64,000 bases of DNA, taken from Psychrobacter aquaticus CMS 56 (GTDB lineage: Bacteria > Pseudomonadota > Gammaproteobacteria > Pseudomonadales > Moraxellaceae). Under the pieces are notes generated by a model. The model saw nothing but the letters and a program-made list of their open reading frames with translations. It ran no database searches and was not told where the DNA came from. Where the stretch lies: NCBI RefSeq assembly GCF_000471625.1, contig NZ_AUSW01000013.1, positions 62,001 to 126,000 on the forward strand, in the 5' to 3' direction. This document shows, piece by piece, positions 4,750 through 13,194 of the stretch (position 1 is its first letter; the number at the start of each line of letters is the position of its first letter). The position numbers were made by a program, and so were the translations under genes.

Positions 4750-5424
4750 TCACTTCATAAAGCCATTATCTGCTAAGAACGCCTCTGTAATTTGGCTTTG
4801 CGGACTAGGCGCATTCATGCTGCTCGCTGCTGACTTATTTATCAGACGCTCTAAGTAGCGCGCAACGATATCTACTTCGATATTGACCTTAGCTCCCACT
4901 GGCCAGTGTTTGGCGATATTGGTCACTTGTGCAGTATGCGGAATGATGTTTAAAGAGACAATGTTGTCACGTACAAGGTTGGTCGTTAGGCTAATACCAT
5001 CGACCGTAATAGAGCCTTTAGTCGCCGTATAATGCGCCAACTCTTGCGGTATCTCAATTTCAATATAGATAGAACGCGCATCTTGTTGCAGCTTACTGAC
5101 CATCCCTACGCCATCGACATGACCGGCGACAATATGCCCGCCAAAACGAGTGGTTGGTAACATTGCTTTTTCTAAATTGACAATATGACCAGCTTTCAGT
5201 TCATTCAGAGCTGTGCGAGCGATAGTTTCACGTGAAACATCAACAGAGTAATGATTGCTACCAAAATCCACCACGGTTAAGCAAATACCGTTCGATGCAA
5301 TGGAGTCGCCCAATTTCACATCACTGAAATCCAGCTCATCAGACTCTATCGTCAAACGTATATCGCCCCCTATTGGTTGCATAGACTTAACTTTTCCCAC
5401 ACTTTCTATAATTCCAGTAAACAT
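4750..5424 (-). CDS. ribE: Riboflavin synthase alpha chain
   Basis: Dismutates two molecules of 6,7-dimethyl-8-ribityllumazine to riboflavin. The protein starts with the family hallmark MFTGIIESVGKV and has the two tandem lumazine-binding barrels (about 1-97 and 98-195), each with a GDSIASNGICLT- or GSITVDGISLT-like segment. At 224 aa it is a little longer than usual because of a C-terminal tail after residue 200. It is read in the same direction as nrdR and ribD but separated from ribD by 660 bp of DnaA-box-rich DNA, so it probably has its own promoter. A parS-like palindrome lies inside the coding region. No FMN riboswitch was recognised upstream. Confidence 0.95.
   Translation of the reverse strand: MFTGIIESVGKVKSMQPIGGDIRLTIESDELDFSDVKLGDSIASNGICLTVVDFGSNHYSVDVSRETIARTALNELKAGHIVNLEKAMLPTTRFGGHIVAGHVDGVGMVSKLQQDARSIYIEIEIPQELAHYTATKGSITVDGISLTTNLVRDNIVSLNIIPHTAQVTNIAKHWPVGAKVNIEVDIVARYLERLINKSAASSMNAPSPQSQITEAFLADNGFMK
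5224..5239. promoter_or_regulatory. parS-like palindrome
   Basis: AGTTTCACGTGAAACA inside ribE; the 14-base core GTTTCACGTGAAAC is a perfect palindrome and only the first base differs from the ParB consensus TGTTTCACGTGAAACA. Confidence 0.6.
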
Positions 5425-5536
5425 ATAGACCTCATCTCATATTTTTGGCATTTATTGCCTAATTCATATCGCATAGCTAATGTTGCATAAATTGGTTTAT
5501 TCGGCGAAACGTGCGCTTATTTTAATCTTATAGAGG

Positions 5537-5691
5537 ATATAGTTGATACCAAATAAAATAGATACACCATATTATGATGCGAGACTGGCACAAACTTTTC
5601 TTGCTTACTGTGCCTCTGCTGCTAGAGGCTACAAAAAATTTATCCCAGCTTCGCTGACTTTCTTTTATATTGACCTGACTATAAGTTGTGG
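5537..5691. repeat. Palindromic intergenic repeat, type A
   Basis: Starts with TATAGTTGATACC and ends in GACTATAAG. The interior holds the core in the CTTGCTTACTGTGCC orientation, and partly paired arms CTGGCACAAACTTTT and AAAAAATTTATCCCAG. Lies at the ribE side of the DnaA-box cluster. Confidence 0.7.
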
Positions 5692-5959
5692 ATAAGTAAG
5701 GATAAATCAACCCGTCACCCTTCAAAAACTCATACTTATTCAAAGTTATCCACAGAATAACTCAATTTCCGACAGATTATCCAAAATAGATAAAATATAT
5801 ATAACCTATTGATTTATATATCTTTGTTATAAAATTTCAATGAGCATCGCTATTTTCTGTTTCATGTGAAACAAAGTTATGCACAGTTCCATGTGAAACA
5901 TTGTTTTTGCCAAATGACTTATACACACTTGTCTCATACGGCATAAAAGTTGTGGATAA
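5687..5959. other. Origin-like cluster of DnaA boxes between ribE and ribD
   Basis: Five exact matches to TTATNCACA within 273 bp: reverse 5687-5695, forward 5746-5754, forward 5877-5885 (TTATGCACA), forward 5919-5927 (TTATACACA), reverse 5951-5959; a near match TTATCCAAA lies at about 5776. Between them, about 5785-5855 is very AT-rich. Two parS-like palindromes sit in the same segment (5858-5873 and a weaker one at 5885-5900). The box density equals that of the rpmH-dnaA gap. The rest of the 5425-6084 gap holds a type A repeat and no gene. It could be a second part of the origin, a DnaA-titration site, or a regulatory region. Confidence 0.7.
5858..5873. promoter_or_regulatory. parS-like palindrome
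   Basis: TGTTTCATGTGAAACA differs from the ParB consensus at one central base. A weaker relative, AGTTCCATGTGAAACA (three differences), follows at 5885-5900. Both lie inside the DnaA-box cluster. Confidence 0.6.
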
Positions 5960-6084
5960 GCGGCTTATAAGTGATACCCTTTGCAGAAATTAGAGTAGTA
6001 AGGAAAACGAGTTCAGCTACGACGCATTGGGCGATAAACAGGTTTTACACAGCCAATCATACTTTTGGGTTGGGCATAACCATT

Positions 6085-7131
6085 TTATAAAGGCAATAAC
6101 GTTAACTTGAGGTCAGAGCCAATCTGTTCATGGCTATCAACATTAAAACGTAGCTGCTGCGCCAAAGATAATGGATTAAATTCAACCATTGGTCGTGCTT
6201 GAGCGCCCAACAAACAAGGCGCTTGGTAAACAATCAATTCATCTACCAGCTGCTGACTCAAAAAACTACCTGCAACACTAGCACCAGCTTCTACCAATAC
6301 GTCATAACATTGATAGTCACTCACTAACGTTTTTAATAAAGTGGTCAGATCATCTGTGCGCCAATATACGGTATCTGGACGACGACACAACTGATAGTCA
6401 GACTGCGGACTGTGTGTTAAGCGTTGACGTCTATCAAGCACTACCACCATAGGCGTAGGCACTTGCTCAGGTGACACACCTAACTGGTTAGAACGTACAT
6501 TGAGTTGCGGATTATCAGCAATAACGGTTTCACTGCCCGTAATAATAGCGCCACTTTGTGCCCGCAGTATTTGTACATCTGCGCGGGCAGCCGCTGAGGT
6601 AATCCATTTTGACTCCCCTGATGCCATCGCTGTACGTCCATCGAGACTGGTGGCAATTTTGAGACGCACATAAGGCATTTGTGTACGCATCGCTGTTAAA
6701 AATCCATGGTTTAATGCTTCTGCTTGCGCGGTTAGTACGCCTAGCGTAACCTCGATTCCAGATTGCTCTAATAACTTTACACCGCGTCCTGCTACCTGCG
6801 GATTGGGGTCAAGACCTGCAATCACGACGCGTTTAACACCAGCGGCAATAATTGCCAGTGCGCAAGGCGGCGTGCGTCCCGTATGGCTACATGGCTCCAA
6901 GGTCACATACGCAGTCGCACCTACTGCGCGCGCGCCAGCTTCTCTGAGCGCAAACACTTCTGCGTGCGGCTCACCCGCTTTGGGATGAAACCCTTGACCG
7001 ACCACCTTGTCTGCTTGGACGATGACACAACCAACTGCTGGATTGGGTCTAGTGGTATACAAACCCTGCTTGGCTTGCTCGATAGCAAGCATCATAAAAT
7101 AACGATCTTGCGAGTGGTTTTGAATCGACAT
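6085..7131 (-). CDS. ribD: Bifunctional riboflavin deaminase/reductase RibD
   Basis: Catalyses two successive steps of riboflavin synthesis: deamination of the pyrimidine from GTP and reduction of its ribosyl side chain with NADPH. The deaminase half (about 1-145) has the zinc site HAE at 56-58 and PCSHTGRTPPC with Cys81 and Cys90. The reductase half (about 146-348) has LKIATSLDGRTAMASGESKW and a GSETVIADNPQLNVR segment. Length 348 aa is normal. It follows nrdR on the same strand with about 98 bp between, matching the frequent nrdR-ribD linkage. Confidence 0.95.
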   Translation of the reverse strand: MSIQNHSQDRYFMMLAIEQAKQGLYTTRPNPAVGCVIVQADKVVGQGFHPKAGEPHAEVFALREAGARAVGATAYVTLEPCSHTGRTPPCALAIIAAGVKRVVIAGLDPNPQVAGRGVKLLEQSGIEVTLGVLTAQAEALNHGFLTAMRTQMPYVRLKIATSLDGRTAMASGESKWITSAAARADVQILRAQSGAIITGSETVIADNPQLNVRSNQLGVSPEQVPTPMVVVLDRRQRLTHSPQSDYQLCRRPDTVYWRTDDLTTLLKTLVSDYQCYDVLVEAGASVAGSFLSQQLVDELIVYQAPCLLGAQARPMVEFNPLSLAQQLRFNVDSHEQIGSDLKLTLLPL

Positions 7132-12591: not shown

Positions 12592-13194
12592 AACTCACCT
12601 ATCAAAATAATGGACTAAATTCGTAATAACGGAGGATTATATCACCAAATATGATTTTGGTCAATAAACTAATTCAATCTATATTTATGCCTGCGTGTTT
12701 TACTGTAGTAATACTACTATTTTTAATGATTCTTTGCTGTTTAATTTAGTGAGCAAGTAAACAGAATTTACAGTTAACACAGTTATATTTTTTAGAAGTT
12801 ATCCACAGATTACCTCGAACTCTATAATAATAAATTAATTAATATATATGGATATTGTTGTTATTGGGACCTGTTTTTTCTGTGGTTAAGTCTACTTTTC
12901 TTTTAGTTATCAAAATATTAGACTATGGGTAAACCTGTGGATAACCTGTGGGTTAAATATGGATAACTCTTTGTTTGTACTTATCCACAAAACTACCCAC
13001 AGGGTTATCCACAAAAAACAGGATGTTATCCACAGGGTATTTGTGTTAAATTATCTCCCTACTCGACATGCCGTTCTAAGCGATTTACCAAGATGAGTTT
13101 TGGTTTGATCACGGTGGGTAATGTTGAGCGCTAAATAATGGTTCTTACCGTTGCTACATATCTATTATTTCAGATTATAGGATTCGTATTTTTC
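12592..13194. other. oriC: Chromosomal origin oriC (rpmH-dnaA intergenic region)
   Basis: Five exact TTATCCACA boxes in 236 bp: forward 12799-12807, reverse 12936-12944, forward 12981-12989, forward 13005-13013, forward 13026-13034. Near matches lie at 12947-12955, 12958-12966 and 12993-13001. AT-rich DNA at about 12810-12860 (TAATAATAAATTAATTAATA) and 12640-12730 could be the unwinding element. The position between rpmH and dnaA is the usual origin in related gammaproteobacteria. It also holds the divergent rpmH and dnaA promoters; DnaA autoregulation is expected. Confidence 0.88.

Follow-up and report, generated by a model that had tools for sequence, protein, structure and literature searches.

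A conserved cluster of DnaA boxes joined to parS between ribD and ribE of Psychrobacter: a probable regulatory link between replication and segregation instead of a second origin

Organization of the ribD-ribE intergenic region

The window analysed in this study comprises 64,000 nucleotides of the Psychrobacter aquaticus CMS 56 genome (contig NZ_AUSW01000013.1, positions 62,001 to 126,000). Within it, ribD is followed by the gene that we take to be ribE, and the core of the region between them holds five DnaA boxes, two parS-like palindromes, an IHF consensus and an AT-rich stretch (Table 1). Read from ribD toward ribE, the order is a box (>), a box (<), a parS, a box (<) abutting that parS and a second parS, continuing with the AT-rich stretch and the exact IHF consensus, and then a box (<) and a box (>). 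An earlier note on this DNA had described five exact TTATNCACA boxes in 273 bp, an AT-rich stretch and two parS-like palindromes, and all of these are indeed present, with the boxes spanning 5687-5959.

Table 1. Features of the ribD-ribE locus and of oriC (window positions; a dot marks features given no strand)
Feature	Position	Strand	Remarks
ribE-type riboflavin synthase gene	4750..5424	-	downstream flank of the element; gene order conserved
Dispersed repeat A	5537..5683	+	between core and ribE; about 147 bp
Element core	5684..5967	.	within the ribD-ribE intergenic region (5425-6084); 284 bp; bounded exactly by dispersed repeats A and B
DnaA box TTATCCACA	5687..5695	-	outer box of the distal divergent pair, closest to ribE
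DnaA box TTATCCACA	5746..5754	+	inner box of the distal pair; extended AAGTTATCCACA context conserved
AT-rich, low-stability (DUE-like) stretch	5786..5835	.	46.8 kcal/mol per 50 bp (window mean, 65.8)
Exact IHF consensus WATCAANNNNTTR (AATCAATAGGTTA)	5802..5814	-	consensus as in extracts of PMC4585315
parS-like palindrome TGTTTCATGTGAAACA	5858..5873	.	14-mer at 5859-5872; one mismatch to TGTTTCACGTGAAACA
DnaA box TTATGCACA	5877..5885	+	between both parS sites; zero gap to the second
parS-like palindrome GTTCCATGTGAAAC	5886..5899	.	27 bp from the first parS
DnaA box TTATACACA	5919..5927	+	
DnaA box TTATCCACA	5951..5959	-	32 bp from the preceding box
Dispersed repeat B	5968..6084	.	between ribD and core
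ribD gene	6085..7131	-	upstream flank of the element
Classical oriC cluster (rpmH-dnaA)	12799..13034	.	five boxes; AT-rich stretch 12817-12866; IHF consensus 12908-12920

The palindromes were scored against TGTTTCACGTGAAACA, which we take to be the parS 16-mer consensus. Taken as a 16-mer (5885-5900), the second palindrome has three mismatches to it, yet it contains the exact GTTYCAYRTGRAAC 14-mer. One DnaA box and one parS are fused without a gap at 5877-5899, a feature that, like the IHF consensus, is absent from the earlier note, and the variable base of this box is A or G in nearly all relatives. When minima within 300 bp of each other are merged, only one 50-bp stretch of the window is less stable than the AT-rich one. 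Features of several known types of site are found here: several DnaA boxes on both sides of an IHF consensus, the datA-type arrangement; DnaA boxes inside a parS locus, as in a Caulobacter-type centromere; a box cluster adjoining an unstable AT-rich stretch, as in an origin; a parS palindrome within an origin-region array, as in a centromere site; and a beyond-chance box cluster that is outside oriC yet near the origin, as in a titration site.

The box density is well above chance; the earlier note had called it unexpected. A Poisson estimate based on the whole-genome density (120 boxes, 61+59, in 3.2 Mb) gives about 5e-8 such clusters expected in the genome by chance. In the window, 13 boxes were observed against 3.6 expected, and none of 100 shuffles got to 13. 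When all 95 boxes of a closed genome of the genus (G004) were read by eye, only two groups of at least three within 300 bp were found, one in the oriC region (114-349, four boxes) and the other at the ribD-ribE locus (2643805-2644019, three boxes). The region is AT-rich, which would favour a compositional artefact, but 68 intergenic regions from relatives, a set partly chosen for the element, contain 258 boxes and 141 parS against 2.9 and 0.01, respectively, in shuffles, and boxes are also present in all 21 Psychrobacter loci of an unbiased set (see below). Chance or composition can thus be practically dismissed as an explanation. In a closed genome of the related genus g14 (G315), 140 exact DnaA boxes were counted, far more than the 36 matches of the reversed control pattern; among the 100 of these 140 that were listed, nearly all of those in the second half of the numbering are on the + strand, with minus-strand matches seemingly under-listed.

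Conservation of the element among relatives

The parS 14-mer that directly abuts a DnaA box forms a composite, GTTYCAYRTGRAACTGTGNATAA, which occurs once in the P. aquaticus genome. With at most one mismatch it is present in 98 of the 105 genomes of the genus, and by our own count from the list it is exact in 88 of the 105; the reversed control pattern was found in none of 348 genomes of the family. The seven genomes of the genus without the composite have three or four exact boxes and at least two parS-like sites between ribD and ribE. The location of composite matches was checked at 30 loci, all 30 of which lie between these two genes. Named Psychrobacter ribD loci, which were found with RibD as query and hence chosen independently of the element, have two to six exact boxes in the ribD-ribE region in 21 of 21 cases. 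The earlier note had made its proposal depend on the boxes being kept in close relatives with the same gene order, and there they are conserved.

The same architecture is seen in g14, which is probably Moraxella, a guess from kinship. Here the composite is present in 10 of 22 genomes, each time between ribD and ribE. Of the g14 genomes without it, four were read: three have four exact boxes, and the fourth (G331) has one exact box and two one-letter variants (TTWTNCACA). In three g14 regions parS is no longer recognisable, while three to four boxes (TTWTNCACA) and an IHF-like motif are kept, suggesting that the boxes are the more persistent part of the element. One genome of a further genus, g8, has two boxes and two parS-like sites between ribD and ribE. 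Twelve other Moraxellaceae genera, sampled at 17 ribE loci, yielded neither a box nor a parS near that gene (several of these loci do not have ribD next to it), and the exact composite is absent from 368 other sampled genomes of the class, a sample without other Psychrobacter or g14. On this evidence, the element seems to have arisen in the Psychrobacter-g14-g8 lineage. Overall, it is very likely real, conserved and under selection, and sequence comparison indicates strong purifying selection in Psychrobacter and its presence in a second genus.

The core is bounded by dispersed repeats on both sides. Repeat A has at least 39 further matches in the genome with 76-88% identity (40 scored of 183 first-look candidates), and it has no match in Rfam at the gathering threshold; its aligned copies share an inverted-looking internal core and TATAG/CTATA-like flanking ends. 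Repeat B matches several other places in this genome and in many other genomes of the genus. A DNA search with 5684-6090, in which 92 of the 105 genomes of the genus matched, was rejected as a measure of core conservation, as it is overstated by the many matches that are repeat B alone (query positions 285-401). Between ribD and ribE, the nearest relative (L010) has 244 bp less DNA and identical internal coordinates, and these lengths are consistent with repeats having been inserted on both flanks with the core spared.

Internal spacing and relation to ribE

Spacings were compared in 68 unique intergenic regions from 80 loci, 53 from Psychrobacter and 15 from g14/g8 (a single g8 region, L158); this set is non-random, in that part of it was fetched for matching the element, and it may include several strains per species. 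The boxes of the distal divergent pair are 57-59 bp apart in 50 of the 53 Psychrobacter regions, and in the 15 g14/g8 regions they are 47-48 bp apart in seven and 57-59 bp apart in five. The two parS around the box are 27 bp apart in 41 of the 53 Psychrobacter regions; the distance is 34-35 bp in two, 37 bp in two and 46-47 bp in four, and it is undefined in four. Most, though not all, of these shifts amount to about one or two helical turns. The 32-bp spacing between the boxes at 5919 and 5951 is seen again in 14 of 53 Psychrobacter regions. Nowhere else between ribD and ribE is conservation as high as in the parS-box-parS unit.

These spacings bear on the possibility that the element is a DnaA-controlled promoter of ribE or controls read-through into it. 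DnaA is a known transcription factor, the element lies directly upstream of ribE, and the last box is 17-44 bp before the start codon in several g14 genomes. However, in 63 intergenic regions the ribE start lies anywhere between 17 and 440 bp from the last box while the internal spacings are nearly fixed, so that the boxes hold no fixed place relative to a gene promoter. Moreover, the 17 ribE loci of the 12 other genera do without boxes, and the parS sites would be left unexplained. A promoter scan of 5300-6200 found no promoter-like site on the ribE strand and two sites overall, against 3.8 in shuffles, and a terminator scan of the same interval was at chance level. Because the insides of the element are fixed and its relation to the gene is loose, we disfavour control of ribE and consider it quite improbable. 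Nothing in the whole window matched Rfam; the region is thus not explained by an FMN riboswitch or by another RNA listed there.

The IHF consensus is also placed at a conserved distance. Exact WATCAANNNNTTR lies 59-61 bp from the inner distal box in 27 of the 50 Psychrobacter regions that have the distal pair (mean of 0.03 in shuffles), and in g14/g8 the exact consensus is found at 64 bp, in opposite orientation, in 4 of 12 such regions (0.01 in shuffles); the position windows of 58-62 and 62-66 bp were picked after inspection of the data. The exact consensus is absent from the other 23 Psychrobacter and 8 g14/g8 regions. An IHF-alpha-like gene is present, but the best IHF-alpha match in the genome scores 114.4 bits, just below the curated cut-off of 120.25 bits.

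Comparison with oriC

What the earlier note had said of the classical oriC, five boxes in 236 bp about 7 kb away, holds for the rpmH-dnaA cluster. Out of 35 loci tried, 29 could be read (six had no dnaA or rnpA in the stretch), and in all 29 the rnpA/rpmH-dnaA region has at least two, mostly at least three, exact boxes and a very unstable stretch. Of these loci, 12 of 29 have an exact IHF consensus at oriC, which stands 28 bp before the reverse box in 7 of the 12, and no parS was found in the rnpA/rpmH-dnaA region of the 29 loci. The element's own AT-rich stretch is in the least stable 5% of the locus in 29 of 29. In several g14 genomes (L183, L184, L196 and L197) the oriC boxes are in 11-12 bp tandem arrays, unlike those of Psychrobacter.

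If the element were an alternative origin or the other half of a bipartite one, this would account for its boxes, its IHF consensus and an AT-rich stretch that matches the one at oriC in instability (46.8 vs. 48.4), and the distance to dnaA is kept at about 7 kb in the loci read. According to extracts of PMC5295017, the bipartite origins of B. subtilis and Helicobacter pylori likewise have two box clusters in two intergenic regions near dnaA, but those clusters flank dnaA, whereas here six to seven genes lie in between and each cluster looks self-contained. Against an origin, the rpmH-dnaA region looks sufficient alone, since it has its own cluster and unstable stretch in all 29 loci, and the element is without the tandem box arrays seen at oriC of those g14 genomes. 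In the window, cumulative GC skew reaches its minimum at 11-12 kb, although gene orientation contributes to this. In addition, the intervening genes all point away from dnaA, so that forks from the element would meet them head-on. Skews at 4-fold sites in the Psychrobacter set do not separate the two sites: TA skew is positive for all genes but one, whichever strand they are on, whereas the genes that lie between the sites have mixed GC skews (yidC +0.16, mnmE +0.01, ribD +0.04, nrdR -0.13 and rnpA -0.23). Our assessment is that an initiating role is unlikely.

The parS array and a possible centromere function

The genome contains 16 exact parS 14-mers, 15 of which are on this 148-kb contig, spread over about 82 kb, and one on another contig. 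Several of them lie within genes, for example at 5224 inside ribE, and a second close pair, 39 bp apart, is found about 10 kb to the left of the window. The view of the parS sites as special to the ribD-ribE locus was therefore rejected, these being members of a 16-site array. What is distinctive at this locus is the fusion of parS with a DnaA box; within the window, no exact box is close to the other parS sites. In one relative (locus L021 of G030, about 1677-1731) the 27-bp unit is duplicated in tandem to give parS-box-parS-box-parS, and the same kind of arrangement is seen in a locus of the named set (L049).

The element could be mainly a segregation site, at which bound DnaA acts on ParB loading, on spreading or on ParA-driven movement, with titration of DnaA being incidental. 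The parS-box-parS unit is the best conserved part, with the prevalent 27-bp spacing in Psychrobacter given above, and extracts of PMC6399470 describe a Caulobacter parS about 8 kb from the origin that is bound by DnaA (Mera et al. 2014). But the boxes are kept without recognisable parS in the three g14 regions, the pair is one of many on a contig with fifteen parS, and parB, although present, is on another contig. A primarily centromeric role thus seems rather unlikely to us.

Bound proteins can be obstacles to ParB clamps. Since there are boxes both inside the parS pair and beyond it on each side, it is conceivable that DnaA gates the centromere: when bound, it could block the loading or outward sliding of ParB clamps, or it could release such a block once titrated or inactivated after initiation. 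We regard such gating as a tentative idea, possible but doubtful. If it holds, a single element would both measure the state of the initiator and license segregation, and box and parS would have become a single composite in this gammaproteobacterial lineage.

A proposed accessory DnaA site wired to the centromere

Among the three readings offered in the earlier note, a datA-like site fits best, given that an IHF consensus of conserved position has boxes on either side of it and that oriC keeps a cluster of its own; half of a bipartite origin is less favoured, and a ribE promoter is disfavoured. We favour an accessory DnaA/IHF site that would work like datA or like an origin-proximal box cluster and that would be wired to the parS centromere. 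In more specific terms, an origin-proximal, non-initiating DnaA regulatory site tied to parS is a proposal that, judged from sequence, we hold with about even confidence. More broadly, the element is probably a control site linking replication to segregation and not a second origin. The DnaA function is ranked first and the centromere link second, since the three g14 regions keep boxes and an IHF-like motif without recognisable parS. Repeats that lie on both sides of the core but nowhere inside it, together with the oriC cluster kept separately in 29 of 29 loci, also speak for a DnaA site.

Under the proposed mechanism, DnaA would bind the strong boxes, IHF would bend the DNA that separates the two groups of boxes, and the complex so formed may titrate DnaA and/or promote its inactivation. 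Because the element is 7 kb from oriC, it would be copied within seconds to a minute of initiation, so that the sink would double at the very time at which a second initiation has to be avoided. The same complex would be touched by ParB bound to the two parS sites, and DnaA occupancy and centromere assembly could then affect each other. Some observations stand against this proposal: E. coli datA is neither adjacent to the origin nor associated with parS, the IHF consensus is not exact in 23 of 50 Psychrobacter and 8 of 12 g14/g8 regions, the best IHF-alpha match is under the curated cut-off, and an unstable AT stretch is unneeded for a sink and would suit an origin.

Several known systems resemble the element in part. 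According to extracts of PMC10950094 and PMC4585315, datA requires DnaA boxes and an IHF site, and minimal datA consists of four boxes and one IHF site. Like the element, datA of E. coli is described in these extracts as non-coding, with about five boxes, one IHF site between essential boxes and conserved spacing, and it can lie downstream of a transcribed gene. It differs in being far from oriC, in being without parS and in its box order and spacing. The B. subtilis box clusters, like the element, are outside oriC and near the origin, where they restrain initiation and buffer DnaA (Okumura et al. 2012, extracts of PMC5295017); unlike it, they are six in number and dispersed, and neither IHF nor a parS fusion is reported in these extracts. 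In E. coli, DnaA boxes are enriched near oriC (extracts of PMC12371093).

For the parS part of the element, DnaA binding at the Caulobacter centromere is the nearest published analogue, likewise with DnaA at a parS some 8 kb from the origin (Mera et al. 2014), though Caulobacter is an alphaproteobacterium and no IHF site or box quartet is described there in the extracts of PMC6399470. The same extracts describe rctA/parS2 of Vibrio cholerae chromosome II, which resembles the element in having a centromere site inside an initiator-binding, negatively acting locus near the origin, but its initiator is RctB rather than DnaA and it is on a secondary chromosome. Among titles on oriC and DnaA of Psychrobacter and Moraxella and on parS and ParB of Psychrobacter, in a literature that covered few subscription papers, none concerned such a chromosomal element.

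How initiation is coupled to origin segregation in bacteria is an open question, and to our knowledge direct contact between DnaA and a centromere is found in very few systems. If our favoured reading is right, a titration or inactivation site would be added to a family for which the literature searched had none, and the coupling would sit in a single conserved intergenic element of 284 bp, whose deletion would leave coding sequences intact, in bacteria that are easy to grow. For comparison there are natural variants that have or lack parS or differ in their spacings.
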